Below, in pieces: positions 1 to 18,940 of a DNA stretch of 22,110 nt. Below the pieces are notes generated by a model. That model was not told the DNA's origin. It did no database searches and saw only the letters and a program-made list of their open reading frames with translations. Each line of letters begins with the position of its first letter. Position 1 is the first letter of the stretch. A program made the position numbers and the translations under genes. The stretch comes from Paramacrobiotus metropolitanus (Eukaryota > Tardigrada > Eutardigrada > Parachela > Macrobiotidae). The stretch is taken from positions 1 to 22,110 of the forward strand of contig NW_026570661.1 of NCBI RefSeq assembly GCF_019649055.1, written 5' to 3'.

Positions 1-220
1 GTAGAATACACAGACATCCACTGCCAGGAACACCCCAGGGGTCCGTACAGTACCACCTGCCTGTATATACAGTACCACCTGCCTATAATTAACTTTTTAA
101 TTACTTTTAATTAAATTAAACAATAGAGTACAGTAATTTACATTAATTTCATTAAGTTACGTAATTCATTAGTGGAAACAATGGTTAATTTTCATTTTTT
201 CTAATTAACGAGTTAAAAAA
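1..220. repeat. Left terminal inverted repeat
   Basis: The first 220 bases are the exact reverse complement of 21885..22104 by eye. The arm contains two direct copies of an ACAGTACCACCTGCCT-type unit at about 48-63 and 70-85, then an AT-rich stretch. Polinton termini usually read 5'-AGT. Here the first base is G and the right end reads CTACT, so the true terminus may lie one base outside the window. Confidence 0.97.
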
Positions 221-628: not shown

Positions 629-2854
629 CTACAGCTTGCGTCTGCCACCACGGTTCTTGTTCGGGTGCATATCCACAATCGGACGCTGCACAACGCATCC
701 ATTCGGTGCGACAAAGCCACCCAACAGTTGAGGCGCTGGCTGCTGAACAGGACCGACAGCGACATCACGTCCACGCTCCCGCATAAATGCCATATCAGAA
801 CTGTGTCCTCCCAGCGCATCCAGCCATGGGGTTGCACTTCGTGGCGCTAAAATACATAAAATCACAGTTATACAGATAAATGTTTGCTAAGTACTGTAGT
901 TGTGTAGTATGTACCAGGAGCTGTTTGGGCAAGTGCGGAAGCCGGCAGGCTCGGATTCACTCCATTAGGACGTCCCAAGCAAATGCGCTTGGCGCCACCC
1001 GTGCCACGACGACGAACTAAACAAAGTCCAAAATTTAACGTTATGTACGAGCACACACCATTACAAGAATTGAAAATACAGTACCTGGTTGAACAGAGCG
1101 TGCTGGGGATGGACTCGGTGACTGCGCACAGGCTGGTGAAGCTGGTCGTGTACTGTGGGATCCACGCATTCCACGTGGTGCTCGACCACGCCGTCCTCCA
1201 CGTGAGCATACAGCAGTATCTGGTTGAACAGAGCGTGCTGGGGGTGGACTCGGTGACTGCGCACGGGCTGGTGGAGCTGGTCGTGTATCCTGTGATCCAC
1301 GCATTCCACGAGGTGCACGTCCGCGTCGTGCTCCACGTGAACATGCGGCAGTTCCCTTGTTCGTAAGGGAGATCGAGTGCTCTGCACTTTCATGCCCGCC
1401 AATTCACGCGCGCTTAACCAGTTGCTTTTTGCAGCAACAGAGCCGCGAGCAGGTTCCGCTAAACATACAGATATGTAGAAATGCACATAATTATTGTGAA
1501 ATTTGCATCTTACCGGTTGGTTCTGATGATTGTTCAGGCTCAGCAGTCGCTGGTGTCGGTGCAAGCACTCGGACAGGTACGGCAACACGCTTGCCAAGAA
1601 TAGCGGTCCCGCGGATGGAGCCGGCGCCACGTTTATCTATAACAGTAACTTCAAAAATAACATTAGTACTTAATACAAAACAGTACTTACGTTGAGTCGG
1701 GGCCGGTGGTGCCTGCACGTGGGTGTCACTCTCATCGTCCGAAGACGATTCCATCACCATGGGACGCTTTCCTGCACGTTGAACCACTACGGGCAGTGCA
1801 GCCGACAACGCAGAACGCTCGGGACTGGGACCTGACACGGGAATACGTCCCAACCGTAGTTCCTCCAGGTACTCTAGGAACTGGTCCAACGTGCCATGGG
1901 GTTAAATTCCTTAATATTCAGCCAGTTTTCACCCCGCGCATACTGTGCCAGAGCCGTGTCTTCACGCCGCAAAGTTTTCCGCTTGGCATGTGCGGCACAC
2001 GCTGCTCCTTTCGTCAAGCACTCGATTACGAAGCGCTCGGCCACTTCCTGTAGTAGACCAAGTGCTCCAACTTGCATGCGCATTTCTGGATTCCTCGTCC
2101 AGGTGAGCACACGCACAACGCGTTGGAATGCTAGCCGCGGCAGAAAAACTTCTACAGGGTTCATTTGGCGATACTTGTCACGTAATGCAGCACGACCGAG
2201 CCGTTTCGTCACAATGCGCGATGGATCCGGGCGGCGAGTGGAGCGGTCGCGTGGGTCGGCACTAGCACCGATCTGCGGAACACGGTCCGGGTCTGCGCTT
2301 GGTTCAACTGGATGATCCGTGAAGGCGTCCAACTCGTACTCATCATCGTGCGCCTCCGCTCGGCGCGGCTATCTGCCACGTCTGACTGGTGATCAAGGTG
2401 CAGTTCTTCTGCCTCTGGCCCAACGTAAATGCACGCACCCATCAGTCTGATTGCAGCCATCTGGGTACTAAAAGATAAAAATTAAGGTAGTTATCAATAT
2501 TTGCACCAGATACTGTTAACTTTATAGCACATACTCGTGTGAAAATTCAGCAGCATTAAAACCAATTTTAGGAACACCATCACCCGCTGAAAACTCAACG
2601 CGATGCACTGGATCAAACGGCAGCGGAGGTGAAGGCGTGCGCACATGCTGCTCGGGAGGCAGCTGTCGGACTGGGGTCGGTGGTCGAATGCTTACGCTCT
2701 CTTCATCGGAAGACGAGTCACTCTCTCCGATATCAGACGTCAACGGTTTACCACTCTTACGATAACGCACACGTTCCGGAGACGATGGGGGTGTGGTACG
2801 AGGCAGCCCGGTTGAGACGGGAAGCTGCTCCGGGGTCTCCATGGAATCATCCAT
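629..2854 (-). CDS. Histone H3-like, multi-exon basic chromatin-type protein
   Basis: Proposed exons: 2535..2854, 1691..2467, 1514..1648, 1085..1458, 915..1016, 629..846, joined by GT-AG introns of 42-68 bp. Splice phases agree throughout if three one-base offsets are accepted, near 2351-2368, 1898-1901 and 1354-1356; the product would be about 640 residues. The second exon holds a histone fold at about 1930..2203 that aligns to eukaryotic H3 without gaps from the FQR motif to the final RGE; by eye about 25 of 67 positions are identical, including LQE and CAAHAKR. Around it are Ser/Asp/Glu stretches (DSSSDEES, SSSDDESD), Pro-rich basic repeats (RRGRAPRGMRG, SPSPPPARS) and a basic end (NKNRGGRRKL). 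The H3 lysine-4/lysine-9 tail signature is absent. Inferred role: packaging of element DNA or interference with host chromatin. The exon chain outside the fold is less certain than the fold. Confidence 0.75.
847..914 (-). other. Intron 5 of the histone-like gene
   Basis: Donor GTACAT and acceptor TTATGTATTTTAG; 68 bp. It joins two phase-1 exons and leads to an exon ending in a basic tail and TAG. Confidence 0.5.
1017..1084 (-). other. Intron 4 of the histone-like gene
   Basis: Donor CAG|GTACTG at the end of the second 135-bp repeat copy and acceptor ACTTTGTTTAG; 68 bp. The matching position in the other repeat copy reads ATACTG, so only one copy has a donor. Confidence 0.55.
1081..1337 (-). 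repeat. 135-bp tandem repeat inside the histone-like gene
   Basis: Two copies with a 135-bp period (45 codons). The landmark CTCCACG occurs on the plus strand at 1196 and 1331. All three minus-strand frames and one plus frame stay open across it. The frame that fits the splice phases encodes an Arg/Gly/Pro/Ser-rich unit with RRGRAPRGMRG and SPSP motifs. Confidence 0.8.
1459..1513 (-). other. Intron 3 of the histone-like gene
   Basis: Donor GTAAGA and acceptor TGTATGTTTAG; 55 bp. Phase 1 on both sides. Confidence 0.65.
1649..1690 (-). other. Intron 2 of the histone-like gene
   Basis: Donor GTAAGT and acceptor TTATTTTTGAAG; only 42 bp. It is a multiple of three without a stop, so retention would still be readable. 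Confidence 0.7.
2468..2534 (-). other. Intron 1 of the histone-like gene
   Basis: Donor GTATGT and acceptor TTTTATCTTTTAG; 67 bp. It interrupts a codon after its second base, and the open frame continues into the next exon. Confidence 0.6.
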
Positions 2855-2967
2855 CTTCAACAAAACAGAGATTAATGCGTCAATAACAAAGAAAATGCGT
2901 CGAATACTGCTCTGAAGTATCCTAGATTATAATTTCTATGTATAAATACAGTACATATGAATAACGT

Positions 2968-3043
2968 AAAATTTCGATTTTAGTATGCAACTTGAGCTAC
3001 GAGCAGAAGACCAGAACGTGATGCCAACCAAAATCGAATTTTT
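2968..3043. repeat. Inverted-repeat element, copy A
   Basis: Arms AAATTTCGATTTTAGTATGCA and TGCCAACCAAAATCGAATTT flank about 35 bp of loop. It belongs to a seven-copy family in this element. Confidence 0.85.
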
Positions 3044-3174
3044 ATTATTTCGTAAAAATCCGTACAGTAACAATGTCTTTACACCTCAGAATACGTCGCT
3101 ATCGCAGTAAAATGCACCGAATACTGCATCCTACATTACAACCTATGTATAAGTACAGTACATATGAATAATGT

Positions 3175-3250
3175 AAAATTTCGATTTTAGTATGCAACTT
3201 GATCTACGAACACAATACCAGAACGTGATGCCAACCAAAATCGAATTTTT
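3175..3250. repeat. Inverted-repeat element, copy B
   Basis: Nearly identical to copy A, including most of the loop, because it was carried along in the 207-bp duplication. Confidence 0.85.
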
Positions 3251-3438
3251 ATTATTTCGTAAAAATCTGTACAGTAATTAGTTTTTTTACACCGCAGAAC
3301 GTAACATATCACAAAAACAGAAGATCACAGTATCAAAAATGGAAGAGCAGACATCAAAGATTCAAACTACAGAATCTGTACAGAAACAAGTATGTACAAA
3401 ATCAGAATTAATTTGTACAAAAAGCATATGTACAGTAA

Positions 3439-4085
3439 TTACAGGTCGGTATGCTCATTAACCACCGACATTTCGGTACTCTCGGTACTGATAGCGTGGG
3501 CTACAGGAGCCACGGCGCACCGGCGTCGAAAGAACATTACGGCACTTGAAATTGCCGCCGCTGCAACGATTACACCGATAATGGCGTAGACCACGTTGGG
3601 GGCGTTGACTGCGGAGTCATGATCCTCGGGTGCTGGCGTTGTCAGTAGCATTGGAGGCTTATCCGCTGGGCTCGACGCTGTCCCGGTGGGCGATAAACCC
3701 GTGCCCATGTCCGTGGTGTTCAGCGGAACCTTTGGCGTGGCTGTGAAGGGAACACGGCCGCAGTCTGACAAGACCGTAAAGTTAACGGTCGACGGTTCCG
3801 TACACTCTAGAACCGGATTGCCACGTGCGTCGAAAAGGCGGAGTCGCGGAAAATACCGGCTGAGTGCAGCATACGGAACACCGTACAGACGGTTGCTCTG
3901 AAACAGGATAACCTGCACCCACTGTTCCGGGCTGCGCGGGGTAGGCACTGTAGTCAAATCCCGCCCCCACAGTTCATCACGCCTTCGATGCGCTCGCACT
4001 GACAGTGATTCAGACAGCGCGACCATACACCGTGCGCGCTACTGACCACTGACAGCAAGAGCAATACTTGCAGTAGGCGTTCCAT
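3439..4085 (-). CDS. Leucine-rich-repeat type I membrane protein (interrupted)
   Basis: The ATG at 4085 opens a clear signal peptide (MERLLQVLLLLSVVSSAHG) followed by a C-x3-C-x-C cluster typical of an LRR N-terminal cap. The frame then changes by one base at a G5 run (plus strand C5 at 3964..3968). The second frame continues with an LRR-like LTTVP, an N-x-L repeat position and GNPVLEC, then a Ser/Thr/Pro-rich stalk with NFT and NTT glycosylation sites, a transmembrane helix (VVYAIIGVIVAAAAISSAVM), an FFRRRC stop-transfer and a short tail. Total about 215 residues. Inferred: a virion or infected-cell surface protein, perhaps acquired from a host receptor. It is not a recognisable fusogen. The break may be an assembly error or a real lesion. 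Confidence 0.7.
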
Positions 4086-4184
4086 CTGCAACAAAACATT
4101 CAGTCAGCAGTAAAGTAACTTTGAATGCACATTCAGACAAAACACACGCACACACACATTGGACTCGGACACACGTTCACTTAC
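4086..4184 (-). other. Probable 5' UTR intron of the LRR membrane-protein gene
   Basis: Minus strand: a strong donor GAG|GTAAGTG at 4184 and an acceptor TTTTGTTGCAG ending immediately before the ATG at 4085. The intron would be 99 bp and place the start codon at the first base of the next exon. This part of the divergent region also holds a CA-rich stretch. Confidence 0.55.
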
Positions 4185-4274
4185 CTCCTCACATATACGT
4201 ACACATACAGTACTTTTGCCGATTTACCGTGCCACTGCGGACACTTTTGCCGTTATTTTCACGCGAGTTTAAAA

Positions 4275-5026
4275 ATGTCTTTAGAAAACGCCGCTAACGC
4301 TCTGTTTCCCGTCGGAACTGGGGAACGCATGATGAAGAACGGAGTCGTATACTACAGTACTGTTCAACAGGACGACGTTCTTATGCTACAGGGTGTCTAT
4401 CGTGATTTGGTGGCACGTTTCGAAGACGCCCAGAAGTACTATCCCGATCTCACAATCGGTGTTAGAGTGCAGTTTGTGAAGGAAACCTGGTTCCATCAAC
4501 AACCGCTTGGAGAAGTAGCATTTGCACTATATCCAAAAGAGGAAAAAGGCACTAATATCGCCTTCCGAGAGAATCCAACAAAATGTACCGAAGAAAATTG
4601 GAAAGAATGGCGCCCTATTGTTCGCGATTTGGCACACGGTCGTATGCGTAATTATCTAAAGTACCAAGTGAAAAATGGCGCAAAGACTGCCCGAGTGCCG
4701 GCTACCGCATCCAACAGGTTATTACTTTTGAATGTCCCGACGGGAGCGGTGTTAAAGCTTGGAATGAAACATGCACTGGTGTATGTGACGCCGATGATGA
4801 CATCGGACCTCCCGCACCAAAATTTGATTATTTCTACCAACGCGTGGACAAGTTCGAAAAGCTGAAGAAACTGGAACAGGGACGTGTTCCGTTCACTCAA
4901 CCAGCCGACCTGGGGGAAGAAAAACGGGACACTATTGCAGGGTTTACACCACCGGTATATCCGTCTTGGGGCGACGAGTTTGACGGAAAGCCAGCTGACT
5001 TACTCATTTTTGACGATGCCAACTGA
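4275..5026 (+). CDS. Conserved-type protein of unknown function, first gene of the plus block (interrupted)
   Basis: The ATG at 4275 follows AAAA and opens a frame running to about 4670. It changes by one base at the A5 run 4671..4675, and the new frame runs to TGA at 5026; total about 250 residues. The second part is Cys-containing (TFECPDGSG, CTGVCDADDD) and ends acidic (LLIFDDAN). No signal peptide or membrane segment. I do not recognise the family. Position at the head of the block that holds the packaging ATPase suggests a virion or assembly role, but that is inference only. The 5' part of this open frame upstream of 4275 is low-complexity and unlikely to be translated. Confidence 0.75.
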
Positions 5027-5125
5027 TCCACCACGAGTGGCAAGTTTTTGTTGTGTAAATTCAGTTTGAAATTTCCGGTTTGAAATCAAATTTTTAATTT
5101 TGAAATTTTTTGATCCATAGAAACC

Positions 5126-5371
5126 ATGGACCCTGAAACGCCACCACCGATTCCCGTAGAGGAAAAGAACTCGCGGGGAATACTCATTTGGGCTCTATTT
5201 TACGCCATACCGTTTGTGTTTTCTCAACTTTTCCGCTTAGGTGCTGTCATTGTATTAAGAGTTACTGATCGATTTCCTATCCACAACATCATTATGCCTC
5301 TGATTTCGTTTGTTTTAAATGAATCACGTCGTTTGCTACTCGGACGTAATAATGGAAGTGCAGTTGAATGA
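5126..5371 (+). CDS. Small membrane protein
   Basis: 81 residues from an ATG in good context (accATGG). The N-terminus is Pro-rich (PETPPPIPVEE), followed by a hydrophobic stretch from about residue 18 (ILIWALFYAIPFVFSQLF) into RLGAVIVL, and a second weaker hydrophobic region near residue 55. Its last 20 bases overlap the start of the ATPase gene. Small membrane proteins are common beside the ATPase in capsid-forming elements, but I cannot assign a family. Confidence 0.7.
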   Translation: MDPETPPPIPVEEKNSRGILIWALFYAIPFVFSQLFRLGAVIVLRVTDRFPIHNIIMPLISFVLNESRRLLLGRNNGSAVE

Positions 5372-6009
5372 TGTGTTTTATCACCCAACTTCTATGTTAA
5401 TCAGTGGGAATTCTGGTTCTGGTAAAACCACGTTTGTGGCAAATATTCTCCGATTTAATAAACTCTCGCAAGTTCCGGAACGGGTTTATTGGTTTTATAA
5501 GCAGTATCAGTCCTTATACGATCAACTTGTAAAGGAAGGATTTCCAATTACTTTTATCGAAGGTTTGCCAGAAGAAATTTCAAAGCCGAATTTTTTTGAT
5601 AAAAACAAGTTAATGTTTGTGTGATTGACGACTTACACCTAGAAGAAAAAACGAGCAAACACGTTGCCCAACTATTTTGCAACGGTGGACGCCATTCCAA
5701 TACAACGGTCATCTATCTGACACAAAATCTGTTTTTTAAGCAGAGTTTTGGTCGAGATATACGGCTAAACGCTAAAGTCATTGTTTGTTTTAAAAATCCT
5801 CAGGACCGACAGCAACTACAAATCTTAGGACGCCAACTTTTCCTAATAAACTTAATTATTTCATGGAAGCCGTCACGGCCGCTTTTGAGAAGCCTTTTGG
5901 TTATATTGTAATTGATTTGCAACACAATATAAGCGATCGATATCGGCTGAAATCGTCGATCTTCGGAGAGAACTTTCCTGGCTATACCGAAGTTTATCTA
6001 CCGGCATAA
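5352..6009 (+). CDS. A32/FtsK-HerA-type genome packaging ATPase (interrupted)
   Basis: Pumps element DNA into the capsid using ATP. The ATG at 5352 lies within the end of the preceding gene. Walker A GNSGSGKTT is at about 5406..5432. The Walker B region is seen as LMFV followed, in another frame, by IDDL at about 5611..5635. A sensor-type TVIYLTQN segment lies at about 5706..5729. The frame changes twice, at 5619..5624 inside Walker B and at about 5838..5844; the last frame ends with TAA at 6007..6009, which overlaps the next ATG (TAATG). Total about 218 residues, normal for Polinton ATPases. Confidence 0.92.
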
Positions 6010-6338
6010 TGGAGCGAAGTAAAACCGTTTCCAATATTGATTTATTGTCATCAATAGCTAAGAGCAAGCCGAAACTTGCGAAAGCGATTATTAAAAATTC
6101 GGAAGACACTTTGATTGATGCCATTTCTGAATGTGCTCTCCAGATTGTTGAAGGCACGGTTCCCGTTTCTGAATCATCGAAAGCTCAACGAGTTCGACGT
6201 TTATTGCCCTATTTAAAGTTATTGTCTAAAAAGTCTGTGTCCAGAAAAACTAAACGAAGTTTTCTGTTAGCAAAAGGCTTTGCTTTATTGTCTTTAATCC
6301 TGCCTCCTGTGCTTAATTTTGTTTTGGGAAACGCTTGA
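6009..6338 (+). CDS. Small basic conserved Polinton-type protein
   Basis: 109 residues, intact. The start overlaps the stop of the ATPase gene. It has a helical N-terminal part (LLSSIAKSKPKLAKAIIKN), an ECALQIVEGTVPVS segment, a basic middle (RVRRLLPYLKLLSKKS, RKTKRS) and a hydrophobic C-terminus (FALLSLILPPVLNFVLG). This pattern of a helical basic protein with a hydrophobic end resembles a small protein often found near capsid genes in Polintons and other animal elements. Function unknown; a membrane- or DNA-associated virion component is plausible. Confidence 0.8.
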   Translation: MERSKTVSNIDLLSSIAKSKPKLAKAIIKNSEDTLIDAISECALQIVEGTVPVSESSKAQRVRRLLPYLKLLSKKSVSRKTKRSFLLAKGFALLSLILPPVLNFVLGNA

Positions 6339-6340
6339 AA

Positions 6341-7069
6341 ATGGCACGACGAATGTTTTTGTTAAATGAAGAACAGCTACGTGCTGTCAGGAAATCCCGA
6401 AGCCTGTCTCCCGTGCCTGTACAGCCTACACATGCTCATCTGGACTATTATGCGAGTCCATTGACCAAGTCATACCGAGATATGACAAACTCACTGCAGA
6501 ATCCGACAATGACTAGCAGACAGCGTTTAAATGCCCATAGCGACGCTATGGAACGGTACAACAATTATATAGGACAGGCTACACTGCCTATGCAGCAGCA
6601 TCCAGCGCAGCATCCTTTCGACGAAACTGATGCTGCAACGCATGGTAGCGATAAGTCCACAGATAGAGTGGTTTTTCTACTACCAGAGAAGCAACAGAAC
6701 AACGCACGCCATTTGCTAACGCACTTACAAGAGTACGGTCATTTTTCAATTGGGAAAAACCTGGAACTTGCAGTAAACGGGATTTTGAAAAACGGTACGA
6801 ACGTTGTGGATTTAATCCGTTGGCTAACTACACCTACAAATCCAGGACCTTCACAAACTCCTCCAAATGGAATAGAAGAAGTATTCGAGGCAATGAAAAG
6901 TTGCAATGCGCCGGCTACGTTATTGCCGAATATGCAGCGTCGTAGAGCATATTTAGATTTTGAACCTTCCGATTTTTCTTTTAATACGCCAGAACGAAAC
7001 AGCAGTGGCAAACGAAGAAGCAAAGCCACCCCAGTTACGGTTCGAAAAAACTGGAAACATTTTGGCTAA
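6341..7069 (+). CDS. Conserved Polinton-type protein of unknown function (PX/PY class)
   Basis: 242 residues from the ATG at 6341, two bases after the preceding stop. The N-terminus is basic (MARRMFLLNEEQLRAVRKSR) and followed by a long polar, Pro/Gln-rich linker. From about residue 105 there is a compact domain (VFLLPEKQQNNARHLLTHLQ, FSIGKNLELAVNGILKNGTN, VVDLIRWL), which matches the general pattern of an uncharacterised protein conserved in Polintons. The C-terminus is basic (SGKRRSKATP). Intact. A polyadenylation signal follows at 7198. Confidence 0.75.
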   Translation: MARRMFLLNEEQLRAVRKSRSLSPVPVQPTHAHLDYYASPLTKSYRDMTNSLQNPTMTSRQRLNAHSDAMERYNNYIGQATLPMQQHPAQHPFDETDAATHGSDKSTDRVVFLLPEKQQNNARHLLTHLQEYGHFSIGKNLELAVNGILKNGTNVVDLIRWLTTPTNPGPSQTPPNGIEEVFEAMKSCNAPATLLPNMQRRRAYLDFEPSDFSFNTPERNSSGKRRSKATPVTVRKNWKHFG

Positions 7070-7075
7070 ATCATC

Positions 7076-7152
7076 AAAATTTCGATTTTGGTGTGCATCT
7101 ATGTTAACAAAGCAACTCTGTTGATTGTATTGCCTACCAAAATCGAATTTTT
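7076..7152. repeat. Inverted-repeat element, copy C
   Basis: Arms AAAATTTCGATTTTGGTGTG and GCCTACCAAAATCGAATTTT with a loop of about 35 bp. It lies between the convergent ends of the plus block and the protease gene. Confidence 0.85.
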
Positions 7153-7197
7153 CCGAGATATGCAAACTGTCGTGTGTGTTCAAGTGTTTAAGAGTCA

Positions 7198-7203
7198 AAT
7201 AAA
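7198..7203 (+). terminator. Polyadenylation signal for the plus-strand block
   Basis: AATAAA about 130 bases after the last plus-strand stop and before the convergent protease gene, the expected place for the 3' end of the block's transcripts. Confidence 0.55.
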
Positions 7204-7236
7204 TTCCGGAACCAAACGACGTTCTTTTTCCGCATT

Positions 7237-7797
7237 TTAATAGATAACCTTATACATAGGCAGAGAATATTGCTGCTTTTTCGGCATATGCTTCAAACAT
7301 TTTCGAGGGTTTTTACACACATGCAATTTCCTCTTAGCAAAAGCATACAGCATTTTATCATTGAATTGCAGTCTTTTGGGGTATTCAAACTTATTTACAA
7401 TTTCACGTAACGTAAGACCGCGACAAGAGTAATAAAGAAAAAATACAGAGAAGAGACCACAAAGTTTAGACTGAGGATGTTGGAGTTGGATCCGATTCTC
7501 CTGATAATGTCCATTGGTAGCCGGAAAATTTTCCGAGATAAATTTGTCAAACTCCATGCCGTAAAATAAAGAAGACTTACCAAAAGAATCAAAGAAAACG
7601 ACATTTTTACTGTTCTTAGCAAATATAGCTAGCCAGTGCTGTCCGGGTTCCGCGTGCTTGTCCGAGTTCACAATCAGTGCGAGCGGAAATTTTGGACTGG
7701 ACACGGTTGGTAGCGTGTCTCGTGAGAACACTCCGAGGAATATTCTCTGAAGACAGCTATCGTGCTGCACGATATCTAGAAGCTTGATATTATTCAT
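7237..7797 (-). CDS. Adenain-like cysteine protease (capsid maturation)
   Basis: 186 residues from ATG at 7797; the frame extends upstream only through a TTG. It matures capsid proteins. The catalytic order His-Asp-Cys of adenovirus-type (C5) proteases is visible: GQHWLAIF (His), FFDSFG (Asp) and SKLCGLFSVFFL (Cys), with Gln residues before the Cys (IQLQHPQSK). The C-terminus is basic with Cys. Intact, normal length, and placed directly after the major capsid gene as in many Polintons. Confidence 0.93.
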   Translation of the reverse strand: MNNIKLLDIVQHDSCLQRIFLGVFSRDTLPTVSSPKFPLALIVNSDKHAEPGQHWLAIFAKNSKNVVFFDSFGKSSLFYGMEFDKFISENFPATNGHYQENRIQLQHPQSKLCGLFSVFFLYYSCRGLTLREIVNKFEYPKRLQFNDKMLYAFAKRKLHVCKNPRKCLKHMPKKQQYSLPMYKVIY

Positions 7798-7860
7798 GTT
7801 TAAGCACGTTTGTATGGGCAATAAACGTTCCGTCGTGCGTCAATTTCTACGAGGGCGTTC

Positions 7861-9127
7861 TTATTGAAATAGACCAATACGGAAAGAGTGGCAGTCGTTT
7901 GAGCCGAAAAAAGATAAGGACAATCCTAGAACTCCTTTTTTCGTAGGATTTATGCACGTGTGGTCTCCAATATCAGGTTCAAGGTTAAAACCGAAAATTG
8001 CATAACCTTTGGCCCAATCTTTTTTGATCAAACGCCAGTGTTGAGTTCTTGTAAATCATACCAGTTGTTTCCAAGAGACTCAGGTACCCGTCGCGTGTGT
8101 TTGTAGCTGAAACCTCTAAGGCTTTCCCAGGAAACGGTTCGGAATTGACATAAGTGATAATCTGGCTCAGTTCATAGGGCTGAAAATTATACGGGTTGCG
8201 AGTTAAGTTTCCTCCAACGGCCTCCGACAAAACTAGAGCAACGAAAAGTTGCTTAGGGATGACTCCCCGAAATAAGTCGTCGCGAGACCAATGACTGCTT
8301 CCAGATGGGATGGTCATCTCGAGAACATGTGATTCCACGTAAGGAATCATTACATTTCGTTTTTGAAGCATAATCTCATGAGCCAACAAAAACTCAGGGT
8401 CCAGCTTGACTTTGCGCAGTTTAAGCGTTGCCCGTTTTATGACAATTTTCAAATCAAGTGGCGCTTGAGGACAAAGCAACGCAAACTTGTCTTTCGATCG
8501 TGCCAATACTAATTTCAAGTCCACTTTAGGTGGAATAAGACGTGATTGGTTCGCTAAGTCACTAGGAAATTTCATAAATAAATGCCATGAATTTCCGCCC
8601 TCGATCATGCCACGGCGCGTAAGGAACCCATCATTCAAAACTAGATTGTTTGGATTAGCTGCAGGCAGTGTAATATAATTCACGTCAAAGCTTCCGGCAG
8701 TGTCCAAAACAAAACCAGAGCTTAACAGCTGTGTTCGACCTTCAGAGCCAAAATTCAATAGGTTTTCGAAGTAGGATGAGTAATGTGATAAGGAAGGAAC
8801 AGATGAAACAGTCTCACTGTTTAATAAAAGTTCATGTCCGCTAAATAGGCTACGTGTAAAGTTGTTAACGACGCCCCAGTTCAAATCAGCGGCAGGAGCG
8901 GCTCCTGCAGTTGTTAAAACAGTTACATCCAGTAAAATAGTGCTGTTTGCTAGATCTATCATTTCCTCTGGGGTTCCCGGAACCTCCCAAGCAATCGTAT
9001 CCACGTTCAAAGTATTTCCTATTGGATTATAGGAAACATACTTCGCGGATTCGATTGCCGTTTGAGTAGGCGGCAAAGAAAAATGGTCCAATTCCGATTT
9101 TAAACACAAAGGTGTATTAGCATCCAT
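7861..9127 (-). CDS. Double-jelly-roll major capsid protein (interrupted near the C-terminus)
   Basis: Forms the hexon-like capsomers. The ATG at 9127 starts a frame of 380 residues ending at 7985. The reading then appears to continue from about 8015..8021 in another frame to TAA at 7861, adding about 40 residues including GLSLSFFG and a CHSFRIGLFQ end. Features typical of Polinton capsid proteins include the N-terminal IESAKYVSYNPIG strand, NNFTRSLFSGHELLLNSE and many beta-strand-like segments. The start lies 11 bases after the stop of the preceding gene. Identification rests on overall pattern and on its place between protease and penton-like genes. Confidence 0.87.
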
Positions 9128-9138
9128 TCTCGTGAGAG

Positions 9139-9654
9139 TTAGCGTAATAATCCCGAAAGCGGAACGCGCATACGCTTCTTCTTGCGCAAACGTTTATGAA
9201 CTCTTCGTTTTCGGCTACGTCTTTTATGAGAATGCTTCTTCGGTTTGGTAAAGGGAGCTGGCTTGGACTTGCGCGAGCGTCGTCTGCGCTTCTTTTTTAC
9301 GATTCCGTGTAGCTGTCCTTTGAGCTTTGATTTTGTGGTCCGGCGTTTCCGGCGCTTTTTGCCCCCCCCCCTTTTTTTGAATATCAGACATCATGTTACC
9401 GACAGCTTCTCTCGTTCGATTTTGAGCTGAATCTAATAACGTTGTCTTGTTCTGTAGAACATCAGAAACAACGTTTCTACCCAGACGAACCAGATTAGGA
9501 TAAATAATATTTTTTGCTGTCCTAGCAAGGCTGCCAAAAAATTTCCAAGCGAACCGTATCCGTGCTGCACATGTCCAACCGCGCTGCCATGTTGCGGTGA
9601 AAGAAGGTGCACGTAAACTTGCGCAGGAATCGCAAAACTTGAAATCTCATCCAT
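9139..9654 (-). CDS. Basic minor virion protein, adenovirus pVI/core-like (interrupted)
   Basis: The ATG at 9654 overlaps the stop of the penton-like gene (TAATG). The N-terminal part is small and glycine-containing (AVGHVQHGYGSLG). After a one-base frame change at the T6 run (plus A6 at 9536..9541), an amphipathic/coiled segment follows (LLDSAQNRTREAVGNMMSDI). A second change at a G10 run (plus C10 at 9362..9371) leads into a very basic tail (KKRRKRRTTKSK, HSHKRRSRKRRVHKRLRKKK) ending at TAA 9139. About 170 residues. The combination of a membrane-active-looking N-terminus and an Arg/Lys-rich tail resembles adenovirus minor/core proteins; a role in DNA binding inside the capsid is inferred. 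Confidence 0.75.
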
Positions 9655-10061
9655 TATTTACGGCGAAAATGTAATTGCAAAACTGAAACACCTTTCTCAA
9701 ATTCAACAGACTCTCCATCTAAACTGGTGATCGAGACTGAAATGCGATCAAACTGAGTGTTCTCAACGCTGATATATTTCAAAGATGAAGGAACGAATGC
9801 GCTTCCGTCTGCAACACTTTTTCGAGATAAAACAGCCAATAGAGAAACGCGTGTTCTGTTAAACACTTGGCTGCGAACCAAGTCGCTAAACACGCACAAG
9901 GTGTCACGAGTTATCGATCGGGGTTTTGGACACTGTAAGTAGCACAGTGCTACTTCAAATTCTCGCAGTAGCTGAACATAACTCGGTAAAAGCACAACGA
10001 ATTCCGACGCCGTGTTTCCAATGCCACTATCAGATGTCAAGGTGATATAGAAATCATCCAT
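9654..10061 (-). CDS. Penton-like minor capsid protein
   Basis: 135 residues from the ATG at 10061 (DDFYITLTSDSGIGNTAS), the N-terminal pattern of Polinton minor capsid (penton) proteins: a short FYITL strand, then a polar NTAS-type loop, then FVVLLP and a hydrophobic EVALCYL strand. It would be the single-jelly-roll vertex protein. It is on the short side for the family but intact. An in-frame upstream ATG lies inside an inverted-repeat arm; I prefer the inner ATG because an AG acceptor-like site sits one base before it. Confidence 0.78.
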   Translation of the reverse strand: MDDFYITLTSDSGIGNTASEFVVLLPSYVQLLREFEVALCYLQCPKPRSITRDTLCVFSDLVRSQVFNRTRVSLLAVLSRKSVADGSAFVPSSLKYISVENTQFDRISVSITSLDGESVEFEKGVSVLQLHFRRK

Positions 10062-10065
10062 TCTT

Positions 10066-10144
10066 AAATATTCGAAATTGGTATGCAATATGATGCGCTA
10101 TAGTCGTGTGAGTTTAGCACTGCACACCAAAATCGAATTTTTCA
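10066..10144. repeat. Inverted-repeat element, copy D
   Basis: Minus-strand arms AAAAATTCGATTTTGGTGTG and GCATACCAATTTCGAATATT. It occupies the whole junction between the integrase stop and the penton-like start. Its right end reads TATTTAAG directly before the ATG, a possible splice acceptor. Confidence 0.85.
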
Positions 10145-11716
10145 AATTAACTGAAGTCCATACCGCTTAAGTTGACTTAAAGTGATCCATTTGTCGAACT
10201 TTTTATTCCAGCCAACAAAACGTATCAAAACTTTGTTGCCTTTCTTAGATAAAACAGCAATTTCAGCAGTCTCTGGTGTATTTTTTGGGACTTTCTGCAG
10301 TTCCCAAACGTAAAATCGTCCTTCTAACATTTCACGTTTCAAATCTTCCACTCGGAACATGGTTATGCCATCATGGGCTTCAACAGCTTTAACTTTGTAA
10401 ATTTCTATTGACCACCCTGGAGTATATCCTTTTTCCATTGCCGTCTTCTTCAAAGACAGACGCACAAAATCTCCTAATTTTGGAATTTCCGTGCTTAGTT
10501 TCTTGTGTGCATATTTGATTTTGTCCTTGTAAATGATCTTGTGAAATTCTTCTGCATTTTCAGCCGTTATTTCTGATGGCTTATGGTATCCTAAACTTCT
10601 ATGTGGGCTGTTGTTGTATGCGTCCACGAGTTTCTGAATTACATCAATCCATCTTTTCGTTCGATTATGCGTAAAATAACGGAACAATCTAGTCGATAAG
10701 GTGCGATTCAGACGTTCAACTTGGCCAGCTTTAATTTCTGCATTATTAGTAGAGAAATGAAGAATTTGATGCTGATTTAACAAAGACTTGACATCAGTAT
10801 TATAAAATTCGGTTCCCAGATCGGTTTGGAATTTTTTGGAAACGGTCCACAACGATTAAATATTACTTGTAAAGCATCACGTACTTCAGAGGCAGTCTTC
10901 CGCTTAATCGGTTCCACCCATGCATACCGAGTAAAACAATCTTCCACGACTAACAAAAAATTATACCCATCATTAACAGATACATACGCACTGTAGTCTA
11001 TTAAGTCCGCTTGGAACTGTTCGTTAGGACCGGAAACAACAAAATTGAGACGAGGAAAGTGTTTGCGAACTGGTTTATGTAGCGTGTAGGCCGGCTGTTT
11101 GCGCAGGAACTCTTTCACGGTGTCCGTCGACAATTTTATATTGCTCTGCTTGCTGGCCTCTCGGTGCAATGCTTGTATTCCACCGTAACCACCCGGCGAC
11201 GCCACGTCAAAATAAATTCTTCTCAGCAAGTTTTCCATGAATAATCTTTAGCAGACGCTTATCAACCCCCTTGGGAATAGTGCCATCTAGAAACTGCTTT
11301 CGAATTTGGGATCTCCACACAGTTAATGACTTATAGAACATTATGCAGTCGCAGACTTGAACAGATTTCCCGGTATACTGTTCCACAACAAGAATAAACA
11401 ACTCACGCAGTAATCGCTTGTCAACGGAGTTTGCAATTTCATAGAAGTGAGCAGACTTATAGCAATGATCGTCGACACGATTGCCACAAGTATGCTGATC
11501 GTCGATACGATAACATCCGCGGCAACACATACGTTCGCTTTTCAAAAACTGACAATTGATGAGAAAGCTGAACAGATATTTAAACGCAGCAGTGCATCTC
11601 TTAAAAATGATTTGTTTATCGCAACAGACATCCAGACGCTGATCGCAAGCGACACACAACCCCGTAATCAACTCGTATTTTAATTTCCCATAATTGTTCG
11701 ATTTCAGAGACGACAT
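10142..11716 (-). CDS. Retrovirus-like DDE integrase with chromodomain (interrupted)
   Basis: Inserts element DNA into the host genome. The catalytic core is seen as D in QADLIDYS (about 11020), D in QTDLGTEF (about 10820) and E in QVERLNRT (about 10715). A chromodomain-like C-terminus (VLIRFVGWNKKFDKWI) precedes the TGA at 10142. A one-base frame change lies at the plus T6 run 10832..10837. Another frame change near 11211..11222 separates the core from an N-terminal part starting at ATG 11716, rich in Cys/His pairs (CVACDQRLDVCC, CCRGC), which may be a zinc-binding extension or a separate overlapping gene. The start is 50 bases after the polymerase stop. Confidence 0.92.
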
Positions 11717-11761
11717 GATTACAAGCGTACAGTGTTAGACAAGAACAATGAAATTTAGCAG

Positions 11762-14700
11762 CTATTCATGCACAAAATATTCTTCCCCATCAACGTCCTC
11801 AGTCAGCATTGCAGGATTGAAACGTTCAAGCAACTGATTTACAACTTCAAATTCAAGTGAGCCGATACTAGGAAAAGGGATACCATGATAACCAAGCGGA
11901 TACGTCACAAAATCACGACCAATAGCACGACTGGTAAACGTACAGCCTATACGGCGAACAAGAGGCACTGTCTGTATTGTCAAGTTATCTGTATTCTTTT
12001 TGAATGTTATACTTTCGCATGCAGTAACTTGGGACGGCCCTGTCCCGAACATCATAGACTTCAGAACACCAATGTTGACCCGTTCCTTCAACCCGTCAGA
12101 CTTAGGAATCCCTTTACACTTTATACGCTGTTCTCCACTGCTGAGGAGCTGACAGTAGGTTTTCTTTGCCAGTGCAGCCCACTCCACGAAATGCTCACCG
12201 CCGAGGTCATCGGACAAATCGCCTAGTAGATCGCCTGTAGGAGGATCTGGCTCGCCCGGGGTGCTCACGAACATCACGGAATCCGTGTCACAGTAGAGCA
12301 AACGATCACCAACAAGCCGTAAAGCTTTAAGGAGTTTGAGTTGGCCGTACTCGGTGGTAAATTTACCAATGTACGGATTTGTTCGCTTGTTAGGCGCAAC
12401 CTGTGCACAAATTTGAAATGATAACTCAATCGGGAATGCTAATAAAAACCCTTTGCACATTTCATACCCATGCGGCTTTCTCTTCGTACGTCACATCGAT
12501 ACACTTTCCATCGTTGACCATACGAATGTCGTTGGTAATATAACGACTGTTGAAAACGATGTCCTTCATTTCCTTGTACGTTCGGCAGTACGTATTTTGG
12601 CGGTACACGGCTTTCATAACAAATCTATTAAGAAATATGAATTAAGAAATGTTTAACATTCTTAATTCACATTTCTTACCTTCCCCAGACTTGGTTGACA
12701 AACGTTTTAGCTGCCGCGCGCATCCCCGGATTGTTGGTAACTTCGTCGGGGGTGAAAATAATTCCCAAAACTTCTTCATATTTCCTGCAGAACTCTTGCT
12801 TCTGTTCATCAGTGATAACATGTGCGGGAAAGTCACTTGTAACTATTTTCGTACGAATGAGATCCAAAATAAATTTGGCAAATACGCCGCCGGTTTTGCT
12901 TTCCGGGTTATATTTACTGCTGTTAGGAAAATGGTGAATCTCAAAAACGCGACGAATGATGTAGCCGTCTTCAACTGCCTGCTCCAGAAGCGGTGTAGTC
13001 CAAGCCCCTTCGAATGCCCGTTGTCGATAATCATGGGTGCACGGCTTTGCGATGTTCAATTCTTCAGAACACGTACGACATAATGTGTACACCGTACGAC
13101 CATCAGCCAATCGGAGCGGGAGAGTAGGTATGAATAAATCATACGGTGGCCATACTTCGCAATACACAACTCCAAACCAATCTTTAATGTTAAAAGGCTC
13201 GCCCGGTTTGTGGAAGTTAGTGAATCGGATCTCAGGATGGCCAACAGGATACTGGTCGAAGACCATAATGGACGGATACAGTGAAATAAAATCCAAGACT
13301 TTTCCTTTGGATCCTTCAGGGATTTCTTTGTACATGCAAAAATGTCTGTCCGACCTCCAAACAAGTAGTCACGCACATTTAAACGCGGTCGGAAATTCGG
13401 CTCTGCTACGATCTCGCCAGCTTTCAGCTTTTCATCGTACTCGCACTCCCAAATTGTTGTCAATATTACAGGAACGTCCGCGTATGGATCCGTAACAGTG
13501 CGAGCAAAGTTATTAAGGTATGCTTCGCTTTGCGCGACTTCTTCACGAAGTGTGCCAAAGGTCTTCATTCTCACCGTGTTAACTTTCTTCGGGTTTGGAA
13601 AGCATTTGGGGCATCCATGCCAGAAACAACCGTAGAACTGGTAGGCTGTTCTTGTTGCAGCGCACCACCCGTCGACAGGTATCCTTCCGAAATACTTCTC
13701 ACCTTCCGCAGACCTAACTGTTTGGATCGGCTCGTCGAGCCGACGAGCACGGTCGGAAATCCAAAGTAGCGCTTTCGTGCTTTGATTCTGGGTACTTCCG
13801 TATCCGCCTGGTGGTGGTATACCAATGGTATCAGCCTGAAGGTAGTGCACTTGAAACGCTTTGATCACAGCAGACGGACTTGTAGGTTCATCAAATGGAT
13901 CCAGACCCGGAAACTGCTTCTCGAATGAAGCTCGCGTAATTTTGCAGCACTCGCGGAGAACCAGAACATCATTGACGCAATACTTCTCACATTCATCCAT
14001 CAGGTTGTAGGTGTCACCATGAATTTCTTTGGCTTCATTGTACCAGGCCTCGAACTCTTGTTTCTTCTTGGCAGACATACGCTCCATGTCGAAATACTGC
14101 TTATCTGCAAAAATTCGATTTTGGTAGGCAGTACTGTATTGGATACCTACGAAAAACTCTGATGCAGACCAAATTCGAATTTTTTGTACCTGGTATCCAG
14201 CCAACATAATTTTCGTTTTCAGGAATGTTGAAGGTGTACGGAAAAAACCCTTTTAGCACTAGATGACTTATTCCCAGGTCTTTTGGGAGCTCGGCTAAGG
14301 ACCGCGGCATGAATGATAACGTATCCACAAACCGTGCGTTGATTCCTGGAATTTTGACGAGTGTTAAACTAGCACCATCTTGAATCTTTGTAACATAATG
14401 TCCTTGACTTTCGAGGGATTTCAGTATAAAGTAGTTGTCGTATTTCCGCCCGTTGTGCGATAGGAATGTACACTGACGTGTGTTTTTGAAAATCCAACTT
14501 AACATATCATCCGCACAGGCACGGCCACGGAAACGCATAACAAACGAATCGTCGTCAAGGCACATCAAGGCCGCCATGTTCGGATAGTGGTAACGACTGC
14601 TATCCAATCCGGCCTCAAAATCAAAAACAAATTTCTTGCTTGTAAATTTCGATGGCTTTCTTGCCATGGCAGTTTCATCAATTGAAGCACTTGATCCACT

Positions 14701-16105
14701 TTCACTTGCACTTTCACTCAGGCGCTGTTCTTCAATGGACGATGTCGTTGAACTGGATCCTTCGAGTGTGCTATCGGTCTCCGATGATTCTTGTTCCTCG
14801 TCGGTGTCATCGTCGGAACCATCGTCAGAATCCAAAATGATTGCTTTGGCAACTTTTTTCTTTGGCTTTACCTTCTTGGCCTTTTCCCCAGAAAGAATGT
14901 AACAGAGGTGCCCAGTTGGTACAAATTCTTTGCAGTTCGTACACAGGTGGGTGTAACATTGATGTGGATCAGAACACAGGTTGCTGTTTGGATTGCTGAC
15001 GTAACCCTTACAATCTTTACAACGGCGCCAGACTTCACATACCGTCCGTGTACCAGTTCTGTAACCATTCTTCGTCTTGTGATTCTCGAAGCATCGAATG
15101 GATCGAAACGATCGACAGCAGTCACCACAAAAGCGTCCATCCGGTTCCAAAGGACTATATTTACTGACACATCCAATCTGAGTGCACATATGACAGACGC
15201 CAAAGCATCGATGCCTGCGCTTATCACTGTAAAGCTACCGCAGATATCGCAACGGCCAGTAAATCCCAGTAGCGTATGTGGTTTAACGACGGCATCAAAA
15301 TGATTGTTATGAAAGATCAACATGACGAGATTCTTGCAATAAGGGGAGTCGTAAGACTCGGCAAACTGGAGATCAGCATCAATGACACGAAGTTGGCAGT
15401 CGTACTTTTCCCGCAGTACGCGAGCAAATTTGTCGAGCTCATCGAAACCACAAGGGCCAAGCGGAACTCTTGCTTCCCAACGCAGCTTCTGAGCCAATGT
15501 ATGCTGAGCTTTTCGGTCAGATCTGCATATGTTCTGATAGGTTCTGTACTTCAAGGCGTGCGCTAGGCAAACAGCGATTGCACGTGAGCAACACAATTCG
15601 TTGTTTGGATCATGGAGAACCGACGGTCGAATAACAACAACACACTGTCGCTGTTCGAGGTACTCAGTTATTTTGAAAGATATTCTGTTCTTTTTAATCG
15701 AGCGCGTACCATATCCGACTGTGTCTCGACAGTGAACAAACGTACAGCGAAGCGCTTGATCAAACAGGAAATAAGCGTTTCCGCTTCGCATAACTCTTTC
15801 AATCGTGTGCACGAGGTAATCTGGAGTTAATTCTCGTGCTGGTAATACCTTACTGGATATGGCGCGATCCGGAAAACTGTGATGCTCGAAAATCAGCCGT
15901 ACTCTATCGGACGGATACACGTTGTGGCGCTTGTACAGGTAGTCGAGAAGAAAACCGAAAAAATCTTGAGCTGATACAATGCATGAAGCAGGTCATTTGG
16001 ATCGAGCGGATCGTGGTTGTAGATAGTAAAGGAATCTTCAACCGTATGAAATTGTGGTGCATGGGTGATGTGATGACTTGCAGGGTTAATTTTGAATGGA
16101 TAACT
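11762..16105 (-). CDS. Protein-primed family B DNA polymerase (two introns; interrupted)
   Basis: Replicates the element from protein-primed ends. Order: N-terminal region with CCSRAIAVCLAH and HFDAVVK; Cys-rich zinc-finger part (CDICG, CGDCC, CTNCKEF); an acidic Ser/Asp/Glu stretch at about 14680..14850; exonuclease motifs I (FDFEAG), II (SHNGRKYDN) and III (YCVNDVLVL); polymerase motif A (DFISLYPSI), motif B (KTFVNQVWGRF, split by intron 12625..12679) and motif C (YCDTDS, about 12285). Intron 14105..14189 is an inverted-repeat element. One-base frame changes lie at about 15958..15963, 15221..15228, 13338..13342 and 12474..12479. The N-terminus is unresolved: coding-like sequence begins after an acceptor-like TATTGTAG at about 16105 with no in-frame ATG, so a further exon may exist. 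Stop TAG at 11762. Confidence 0.95.
12625..12679 (-). other. Polymerase intron 2, a near-perfect hairpin
   Basis: 55 bp with donor GTAAGA and acceptor TTTCTTAATAG, inside motif B of the polymerase. The two halves are reverse complements: on the plus strand AAGAAATATGAATTAAGAAA against TTCTTAATTCACATTTCTT with a small loop. Splicing keeps the WGRF motif in frame. Confidence 0.85.
14105..14189 (-). repeat. Inverted-repeat element copy E, acting as polymerase intron 1
   Basis: 85 bp. Donor GTACAAAAAATTCG and acceptor ATCGAATTTTTGCAG lie at the outer ends of the two arms, so the repeat is the intron. Removing it joins GWIP to KQYFDMERM in one frame (phase 1). Other copies of the same element lie at gene junctions. 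Confidence 0.88.
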
Positions 16106-16372: not shown

Positions 16373-17950
16373 CTAAGGATATCGAAATGCATTTTGACGA
16401 ACAATCGGCGCTGGACCGTCGTAGTACCGAGTACCGTACTGCGTCTGCGGACGGAAACTGACAGGCGTCGGTGGTGCCATATTCAGCTGATCATAGTGCG
16501 TTGAAGGAACGTTGTTGACGAAATCTTGCATAAACCGATGCTCCATTTGCTGACGCTGCTGTTGCAGATGATCTACACGTGATGGCTGATTCTGGTACAT
16601 CGGCGGTTGCTGGTATTCCACAAGGACTGGAGAACCAGTATAACGGTTCCCATCTACCAATGCAGCCACGACTGTACGACTTTAACAGTAAGATTCTACA
16701 GTACCGCATCTTACCGTATACATCAGATGCCGATCGGAAGCCACCACCACTTGGTTCTATAGCGTACTGCGGAACTTGCTGCGCGGGAAGGTAGGTGCCG
16801 TTCCGATTAACGTATCCCGAACCTGATGCGGCACAATCGCTGCGCGGCTGCCCAAAAAACCCGCCGGCAGCAGACGAAGAGTCGTATGCACTGCACTGAG
16901 TAGCCGGATAGGTGTTAGACGCATGCAGCTGATGGTGCACTAAAAAATCGATTTTGGTTAGCACCGGCGCCGCACAGTGCGTGTTAAAATCAAGTTGAGT
17001 ACCAAAATCGAATTTTTTATTTTCATGAATGTAAGCTAATGATTTTATCCTGTGCGACTGAATTAATAAATTAACTCACCCAAGTTTGGATATTTGGCAT
17101 TCGGATGAGGGATGAATGGCTGAGTAAGCTTTGACTGCACAAACCGACGACGTTTGGACTTCTCGGGCGCATTCGGTGCCTGCCGTCGTTTGGGAGAAGT
17201 AGGCGGCGTGTCCAAAACTTGTCCACATCCGGTCTGCACGTATACATCGAGCTGGTTTTCTTTATTTTCACCGTCGCTGGCCAGGTCTTTTAAGATGACA
17301 TCCATTTCTTTGTCGTCTAGGAAATTCAGGGTCGGTTCTAGGGCGTGAATGGGATCGTACATGTCAGCGTTGCTGTTGACGGTCGGGACTTGATTATCCA
17401 CAGTCCACACGTCACATCCGAACATGCCATACGGCGGATACTCCTGCTTCTTTGGTGCCGGTCCGAGAATCGCGGTGATACGTTGATAGTTCAATGGATC
17501 GAGCACAATCCGGTTGAATTCTGTGTAGTACTTTAACAGATAGCCGAACTGCTGCGCCGTAACAACTTCAGCATAGACAGGGCTGTCGTCAGGACGGATG
17601 GGTACAAGATGGACAAAACAATCGTTAATGGAATGAGTAAGACGATCGAAGCCGGTCTGGAACACAGTCTCCTCGAATTCCTGGTAGAAACTCAGCGAGA
17701 AGCAGAGCGGTGACTTAGGACTACCGAACAACATAAGGACTGAGCGCTCTTTGGAGAAAGCGCCGTGCAGCTGTTCCTCTTGTGGATAAAACAGCTTGTA
17801 GTATAACCCGCAGCAGCTCGACATCTCTTCCGGTGTGGGAAGTAGATAGTCGTGCAGCGTAGGAGTTAACCAACGCCCGGAAGTGCAAAGTGTCCTTTGC
17901 AGTTCGAGGGCGGGATTGCTTCGGCCGGGCCATAGCTTAAAACTTGACAT
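16373..17950 (-). CDS. Three-exon gene of unknown function, probable nuclear protein
   Basis: Exons 17080..17950, 16715..16939 and 16373..16671 join in consistent phase 1 and give 464 residues without any frame break. The N-terminal about 200 residues look globular (PTPEEMSSCCGLYYKLF, DRLTHSINDCFVHLVPIRPD). Next comes an acidic part (FLDDKEMDVILKDL), then DTPPTSPKRR and SKRRRF, a bipartite-like nuclear localisation signal with proline-directed Ser/Thr sites, then QSKLTQPF, close to a PCNA-binding box but with Pro at the first aromatic position. The last two exons are Gly/Ser/Tyr/Gln/Pro-rich and probably disordered. I do not recognise the family. Its place next to the polymerase and its motifs suggest a regulator or replication partner, which is inference. 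An acceptor-like CTTTCTTGAG lies 2 bases before the ATG. Confidence 0.75.
16672..16714 (-). other. Intron 2 of the 464-residue gene
   Basis: 43 bp, donor GTAAGATG, acceptor AGTCGTACAG. Near its 5' side GTAAGAT pairs with ATCTTAC 13 bases later, so this intron can also fold into a short hairpin. Confidence 0.7.
16940..17079 (-). other. Intron 1 of the 464-residue gene, containing inverted-repeat copy F
   Basis: 140 bp with donor GTGAGT and acceptor ATCGATTTTTTAG. The 3' part (16941..17020) is an inverted-repeat element whose outer arm end supplies the acceptor. The upstream part is unrelated AT-rich sequence. Confidence 0.82.
16941..17020. repeat. Inverted-repeat element, copy F
   Basis: Arms TAAAAAATCGATTTTGGTTA and GTACCAAAATCGAATTTTTT on the plus strand, with a GC-rich loop. 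It lies inside an intron and ends at the splice acceptor. Confidence 0.85.
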
Positions 17951-18845: not shown

Positions 18846-18940
18846 AAAAAAAATTTTGAAAAATTTCGAATTTGGTATGCATTTATGATGCAACACATCA
18901 CGTAAAATCGAAGTTGCTTACCAAAATCGAAGTTTTAATT
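18846..18940. repeat. Inverted-repeat element, copy G
   Basis: Minus-strand arms ACTTCGATTTTGGTAAGCAA and GCATACCAAATTCGAAATTT. The right end runs into the AG just before the ATG of the 184-residue gene. The left arm contains GGTAAGC, itself donor-like. Confidence 0.85.

Follow-up and report, generated by a model that had tools for sequence, protein, structure and literature searches.

Background

Several viruses encode single core histones, and among the closest to the gene described here are the six single virus H3s listed in the available passages of a 2022 review (PMC9145170), which are 73-87% identical to the H3 of a possible host, are carried by Manila clam xenomavirus, Dishui Lake phycodnavirus, Sylvanvirus and three metagenome-assembled genomes (MAGs), and may, as the review leaves it, act either on the viral genome or in host chromatin alone. 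We report an H3-type histone gene at the left end of a Polinton (Maverick) element from the tardigrade Paramacrobiotus metropolitanus (RefSeq assembly GCF_019649055.1). The stretch of DNA analyzed, hereafter the window, is the entire 22,110-base contig NW_026570661.1 (C441) of an assembly of 169.8 megabases in 533 contigs. Wnt genes give 34 matches in this assembly, which marks the host as an animal. As in the single virus H3s of the review, some of which have an extended or divergent N-terminal tail, the H3 stands alone without its partners. Whereas those are scattered, sporadic, near-host genes whose use is left unclear in these passages (PMC9145170), a single tardigrade genome here holds many diverged and selected H3s that are Polinton-borne, form four subfamilies spread over many elements, share 26-41 of 75 core residues with the host H3 and have acidic tails with few lysines.

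Other described systems bear comparison as well. Histoid genes of remote histone similarity have been reported from adomaviruses, in one case joined to adintovirus-like virion genes (PMC11071296, a 2024 preprint), and these adomavirus and tailtomavirus genes are comparable in being histone-like genes of small animal double-stranded DNA viruses; the parts of the preprint at hand give only remote HHpred or fold similarity for Histoid, whereas the tardigrade protein is recognized as H3 by plain sequence search. The bracovirus H4, as presented in the available text of PMC5423620, is likewise a single core histone with a functional tail in an animal virus-derived entity, but it is an H4 on wasp-borne particles and not an H3 in a tardigrade Polinton. 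Nucleocytoviricota also encode core histones, some of them singlets, although in the accessible portion of their survey many are fused repeats branching outside the eukaryotic clades (PMC11222145), and a distant relative recovered here (L062) is such a fusion. Polintons, for their part, are described in the sections seen of PMC4028283 with the inverted ends, type-B DNA polymerase, integrase, protease and ATPase that recur in the element studied here.

That Polinton paper (PMC4028283) never uses the word histone, and the review (PMC9145170) uses none of the words Polinton, Maverick and adinto; the available portion of the giant-virus histone survey (PMC11222145) makes no mention of Polintons, and that of an Amoebidium study, which concerns giant viruses, reports that no histones were found in its viral insertions (PMC11244446). 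Where histones come up in the passages available from PMC12721341, PMC12220804, PMC6459981, PMC13037468 and PMC8363768, the subject is dinoflagellate proteins, an RNA stem-loop (of which a set of Polinton-like virus (PLV) and virophage genomes has 6), modifying enzymes or the title of a reference. Among the matches listed from the open-licence literature, judged by titles, the beginnings of abstracts and passages, there is no report of a Polinton histone gene. The view of a preliminary description of the window, made from its letters only, that an H3 in such an element was undescribed holds within that literature, with single H3s known elsewhere, including in a small animal virus. The H3 versions, together with a second lineage bearing H2A, permit tail loss, chaperone-site change and cassette exchange to be compared side by side, provide natural H3 variants without the canonical tail, and make testable the idea of a selfish element running its own chromatin inside an animal nucleus.

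An H3-type histone gene at the left end of the element

The minus-strand open frame at 1877-2368 (P0001, 164 residues) encodes an H3-type histone fold. Its residues 51-143 match the Pfam Histone profile (PF00125; E = 4.1e-14; 53.3 bits, the cut-off being 26.4), and a search of PDB chains recovered 180 sequences at E ≤1, all of the 60 listed being H3, with H3.3C as the top solved chain (E = 5.3e-14, residues 55-148). The similarity to histones is far above chance, and by Pfam, PDB and tree P0001 scores with H3 over the other histone types. The preliminary description had claimed such a fold and had aligned it by eye with H3, without a gap from FQR to RGE, at about 25 of 67 identical positions; against the host H3 the alignment is indeed gapless between these motifs, with 26 of 75 positions identical (H3 positions 57-131). 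A histone tree, a check that it had suggested, places the protein among H3 and apart from H4. The histone core used for alignment, substitution rates, trees and the second structure model lies at 1919-2221 (minus strand). A protein search with the window frame alone returned nothing at E ≤0.001.

The predicted histone exon (1691-2467, minus strand) has an acceptor (..TTTTAG) ending at 2468 and a donor (GTAAGT) from 1690, and these signals fit the ends assigned earlier; the single open frame that had gone with them did not stand for the window copy, in which the exon spans three frames (2481-2212, 2368-1877 and 1901-1494) with two frame breaks. The near-identical copies on contigs C393 (99%) and C250 (97%) retain an uninterrupted frame of 330 codons, and the window frame at 1494-1901 (minus strand), which has no Pfam match, corresponds to their C-terminal tail. 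The copy on C115 is broken, and its downstream (second) break is common to it and the window. Upstream, a minus-strand frame rich in serine, acidic residues and proline (2525-2842) could be spliced onto the histone exon without a change of frame through a GTATGT donor and a TTTTAG acceptor, and we predict that the gene is likely to be spliced, with this frame as its first exon. Relatives of this frame were found in four copies of subfamily B as defined below (63.8-72.3% amino acid identity over 47-54 residues) and in those at C442 and C9:239k (45-46%), with no counterpart found in the fetched pieces of subfamilies C and D. Direct repeats of 135 bases occur near the histone end, in tandem at 1079-1348 (87% alike) and, at a spacing of 207 bases, at 2936-3277 (95% alike).

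A family of H3-bearing elements in the tardigrade genome

A protein search of the genome with the histone gave 24 matches, some of which are host H3 or variant genes, and 23 frames of the window were searched for in eighteen pieces of 9.9 kilobases (kb), each lying on the inward side of an H3-like match. Two left-end genes without a Pfam match (3442-4038 on the minus strand and 4125-4862 on the plus strand) adjoin the histone together with the ATPase in 12 of the 18 pieces (C393, C250, C115, C43, C266, C18, C84, C95, C19, C16, C9:116k and C22). The protease is then present in 10 of these 12, the exceptions being C43, which has no match past frame 6317, and C266, which is rearranged in the same region. 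Each left-end gene occurs in 15 of the 18 pieces: C36 has them with a partial ATPase, and C442 and C9:239k keep them, the former with a further weak match to frame 17066. C90 holds histone pieces only, and the C3 and C251 pieces are without element genes.

Viewed from the ATPase, an H3-like frame lies 3.4-4.0 kb away at 13 of 37 places, window included, these places being the genomic matches at least 74% identical to the window ATPase; the orthologues at the same left-end position for which the preliminary description had proposed to search are thus present, and the genes next to them agree in the 12 of these 13 for which pieces were compared. It had named the lack of a profile match and a misassembled host gene as outcomes that would count against its claim, and neither occurred. 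That a host histone gene was misassembled into the element is very unlikely because the same gene recurs at the same distance at these 13 places. The copies also lie between inverted repeats, with two window-type repeats bracketing the histone in C441, C250, C393, C18 and C84 and a single one adjoining it in C115, C43, C95 and C266. At 24 of the 37 places no H3-like frame was found within 12 kb, which implies that the gene is not needed by every relative.

We divided the copies into four subfamilies: A (window, C393, C250, C115 and the C90 pieces), B (C43, C18, C84, C266 and C95, with the truncated C442 and C9:239k), C (C16, C36 and C9:116k) and D (C19 and C22). Long open histone frames are present in C393, C250, C43, C18, C84, C19, C16, C36 and C9:116k, the C16 frame being contained in the P. 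metropolitanus protein LOC129585178, and besides the window the copies in C115, C266, C95 and C90 are broken.

Of 297 candidates from a genome-wide search with the protease, 150 were scored, and at least 151 matches resulted, one copy possibly giving several; their number points to a genome rich in Polintons. One element (C57:654682-670867) has two window-type inverted repeats (98-99%) and the protease, with only about 1.1 kb between the protease and the right repeat, and is without an H3-like match. Two related elements in which no H3 was detected were read close to where the histone would lie, in the pieces L060 (C23:651500-654500) and L061 (C38:153900-156900), and both pieces share a frame that by eye resembles a leucine-rich-repeat transmembrane protein. 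It is as if the left end of these elements were a slot for cargo.

Sequence anatomy and selection

Taking one row for each subfamily, identity to the host H3 core (positions 57-131) is 26/75 in A, 32/75 in B, 37/75 in C and 41/75 in D, and that of a host CENP-A-like protein is 46/75. F67, R69, A88, Q93, E97, A111, H113, R116, T118 and L126 are invariant in all 13 element and host rows; among the residues that we take to form the H3-H3' contact, H113 and R116 occur in every row and D123 in all but one of the 13. Of 17 H3 positions that we assume to be DNA contacts, 10 are kept in A, 9 in B, 10 in C and 11 in D, again from one row each. This partial loss, along with the long non-histone tails, might suit a protein that binds H4, histone chaperones or silencing enzymes as a decoy or regulator and builds no nucleosomes, but the host CENP-A-like protein likewise keeps 10 of the 17 contacts while CENP-A is, as we understand it, a nucleosome histone, and R116 and T118 do not vary in the 13 rows; we regard such a role as quite improbable.

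Before helix 1, in the alpha-N region (about 44-57), the window protein retains R42, G44, A47, L48 and R49, and the modelled core has a helix at 8-20 in this region at low confidence. The alpha-2 site, AAIG in the host H3, reads GALG in A, AALF in B, AAIY in C and PALM in D (one row each). The motifs ARTK, ARKS and TKQTAR, found in the host H3 row, are seen in none of the 10 element rows, in agreement with the earlier remark that the canonical modifiable tail is missing. In its place stand acidic N-terminal regions (D/E against K/R 20:11 in 88 residues in A, 23:7 in 98 in B and 20:13 in 85 in C) with 1, 0 and 6 lysines, respectively, and C-terminal regions with K/R against D/E of 18:16 in A, 11:8 in B, 15:10 in C and 13:3 in D. 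Given the absence of the canonical N-terminal tail, the element protein is, as judged from its sequence, a diverged H3-derived variant, like CENP-A, rather than a canonical H3.

The ratio of nonsynonymous to synonymous substitution rates (dN/dS) was taken over the core (about 100 codons; ten element rows and the host H3) and over the full frame (eight rows), excluding the broken or truncated C115, C266, C95, C90, C442 and C9:239k as well as C22. Core values are 0.15, 0.16 and 0.16 for the pairs within B and 0.06 and 0.07 for two of the pairs within C, and five of the six informative pairs show purifying selection on the histone core. With the tails included the ratio is 0.25-0.56 in five of six B and C pairs and 0.55 in the single A pair; as these values exceed those of the core, the tails evolve faster. 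Comparisons between subfamilies show full or almost full saturation at synonymous sites. A functionless captured host H3 pseudogene or an assembly artefact might be suspected from the two breaks in the window frame and from the broken state of C115, C266, C95 and C90, but core ratios well below 1 in five of six informative pairs, nine copies with long open frames and a fixed position relative to the ATPase make this a most improbable account.

As to origin, the element H3s may stem from one early capture or from two. In a first tree subfamily A groups with B (96/93), with one outside protein beside them that may reflect a meeting of long branches, and C and D join at 82/93 together with the C251 and C103 pieces, an arrangement unresolved in a second tree. 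The latter, built without that outside protein, the rows P0003, P0006, L062 and human H4, and the pieces from C251 and C103, places all ten element H3s on one side of a branch supported at 83/85, which is not decisive. Capture from CENP-A was rejected because the CENP-A-like protein of the host falls together with human CENP-A (85/80) and not among the element rows. An origin from giant viruses is without support, the single H3 relative found in IMG/VR (L062) being a distant histone fusion, and scans of IMG/VR with the histone, the histone alignment, the protease and the F54H12.2-like alignment returned no relatives. A separate H3-like protein (L003, C3:1715899-1716231) has a long tail starting MARTK and clusters with CENP-A proteins (87/93); window genes have no counterpart in one neighbouring piece of 9.9 kb.

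Proposed function of the element H3

We tentatively propose, as a plausible reading somewhat short of a probable one, that the gene encodes a Polinton-lineage H3 variant which likely pairs with host H4 and is laid down on the DNA of the element itself. The pairing is suggested by the H3 type, the missing partner, the conserved pairing residues, the changed tails and the selection described above. A CENP-T_C profile, which is expected to catch H4, matched 8 places in the genome, none close to the listed elements, a negative limited in that these 8 places were not checked for host H4; with no H4-type match beside the elements, their H3 would need the H4 of the host. Nucleosomes formed by the two on element DNA would be devoid of the N-terminal lysines 4, 9, 27 and 36 that the host methylates, so that the element in the nucleus could escape ordinary marking and silencing and remain transcribable and replicable. 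The tails and the alpha-2 chaperone site may vary because it is there that the chromatin defence of the host meets the element.

Several observations weigh against this proposal. The window copy is itself broken twice, four further copies are broken, and no H3 was found within 12 kb of most of the ATPase places; the limit on the H4 search belongs here as well. Selection is less clear in part of the material: the third C pair has a core dN/dS of 0.42 (5 changes), the A copies show no synonymous change in the core and are too alike for the ratio to be taken, and the full-frame value of the C16-C9 pair is 0.90. At the level of residues, the window protein differs at 7 of the 17 presumed DNA contacts, including R63 to P and P66 to A, R83 is absent in all three subfamily B rows, and C84 has N at D123. 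Structure prediction, which the preliminary description had put forward as a check, did not recover the fold: two AlphaFold models are weak (mean predicted local distance difference test scores of 52.4 and 66.4), and a Foldseek search with the model gave no histone among 15 matches, all at E >3. In our opinion the poor models are due to shallow alignments.

Histones are considered to pack DNA in some virions, virus-encoded ones in Marseilleviridae and host ones in polyoma- and papillomaviruses, and the H3 variant, with host H4 or alone, could in a similar manner condense the element DNA inside a capsid. The element encodes an ATPase of packaging type, a protease of adenovirus type and an F54H12.2-like protein, presumably of capsid type, and the C-terminal regions, from slightly basic in A to clearly basic in D, would suit a virion core protein. 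Yet A, B and C have acidic N-terminal regions, unlike condensing proteins as we know them, a lone H3 requires a partner of which none was found, and 24 of the 37 ATPase places show no H3; we hold this role to be unlikely.

Alternatively, the variant might enter host nucleosomes and alter host expression or chromatin defence. Bracovirus H4 does enter host nucleosomes and change expression according to the available text of PMC5423620, single virus histones are thought to be active in host nucleosomes in the passages seen of PMC9145170, and the altered tails and alpha-2 site would be in keeping with such an effector. The element proteins are, however, further from the host H3 (26-41 of 75 core positions) than the known single virus H3s (73-87%, as listed in those passages of PMC9145170), and this greater divergence makes bulk entry into host nucleosomes less likely, leaving the effector somewhat unlikely in our estimation.

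Probable exchange of the left end and an apparent second histone capture

Nucleotide comparison with the window in 300-base tiles from 2301 to 12300 revealed two opposite patterns. C18 and C84 are 94-100% identical to the window from 5.0 kb on (except in C18, with 86.0 at 10101 and 90.5 at 11301) and 70-96% identical between 2.6 and 5.0 kb; no nucleotide match was obtained for the tile 2301-2600, where the histone exon encodes its N-terminal part. C250 shows the reverse, with 98-99% up to 5.0 kb and mostly 87-97% past it, the outliers being 79.4 at 7101 and one 60-base match at 98.3. Like the left end, the inverted repeats are close to those of the window in C250 (98%) and more distant in C18 and C84 (80-82% along some 150 bases), and at the protein level C18 and the window agree at 100% in the protease and 97-100% in integrase pieces longer than 50 residues, against 45% in the histone. 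We infer that elements exchanged a left-end cassette, which includes the histone and the inverted repeats, by recombination at a breakpoint close to 5.0 kb. Rapid divergence by itself was rejected as the source of the differing histone ends, since C250 shows the reverse pattern.

H2A-like frames were found at C31:159033, C90:103361, C158:28888, C50:90332, C41:261484, C10:708427 and C21:1451071. In PDB the encoded protein matches H2A (E = 5.8e-18); among host genes, four share 51-52% identity with it and a further two 49% and 39%. Among the matches listed, five of the seven frames lie near a distant Polinton protease (3.6-3.8 kb) or ATPase (9.2-10.5 kb), with neither nearby for those on C50 and C21. 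The five copies read (L051-L055) agree at 98-100% over roughly 1 kb surrounding the gene, and the H2A elements are not among the matches listed in a genome search with the type-B polymerase profile (79 of 507 candidates scored). The H2A-like gene is apparently an independent capture of a core histone by a second, distant Polinton lineage, which would mean that histones were taken up more than once. Joining these observations to the proposed pairing with host H4, we advance as a possibility, and a more tentative one than that pairing, that Polintons in this genome have taken animal core histones at least twice (H3 and H2A), build unmarked hybrid nucleosomes on their own DNA and trade the histone end as an arms-race cassette.

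The carrier element

The element is a Polinton by its inverted ends, type-B polymerase and adenovirus-type protease, as the preliminary description had held. The contig, which has no left flank, opens exactly with the left terminal inverted repeat (1-220, plus strand), whose 220 bases are 100% complementary to the right repeat (21885-22104, minus strand), and ends after the 6 nucleotides TAACGC that follow the latter. The packaging-type ATPase (5319-5908, plus strand) consists of two overlapping frames that match Pox_A32 at 4.3e-4 and 0.022, both below the Pfam cut-off. The adenovirus-type protease (7240-7839, minus strand) matches Peptidase_C5 above the cut-off (3.9e-8). Three frames make up the type-B DNA polymerase, of protein-primed type (12679-15234, minus strand), matching DNA_pol_B_2 at 3.6e-9, 3.1e-5 and 9.8e-7, two of them above the cut-off, and two frames make up the integrase (10145-11247, minus strand), with rve at 5.8e-5 and rve_3 at 0.0085, both below it. 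The F54H12.2-like protein (7988-9193, minus strand), a candidate for the double jelly-roll capsid protein of Polintons, has relatives in many animal genomes; 174 were found, and among the 120 listed several from insects and a crinoid are named F54H12.2-like. Its alignment gave no convincing match against PDB, with a single one at E 0.49.

A 17-base motif, ACCAAAATCGAATTTTT, occurs 13 times in the window at up to 2 mismatches, against 0.02 expected, with sites at 2968-3250, 7076-7152, 10126-10142, 14109-14184, 16942-17017 and 18860-18936. Twelve of the 13 occurrences form inverted pairs 59-60 bases apart, and the motif is perhaps a shared transcription signal.

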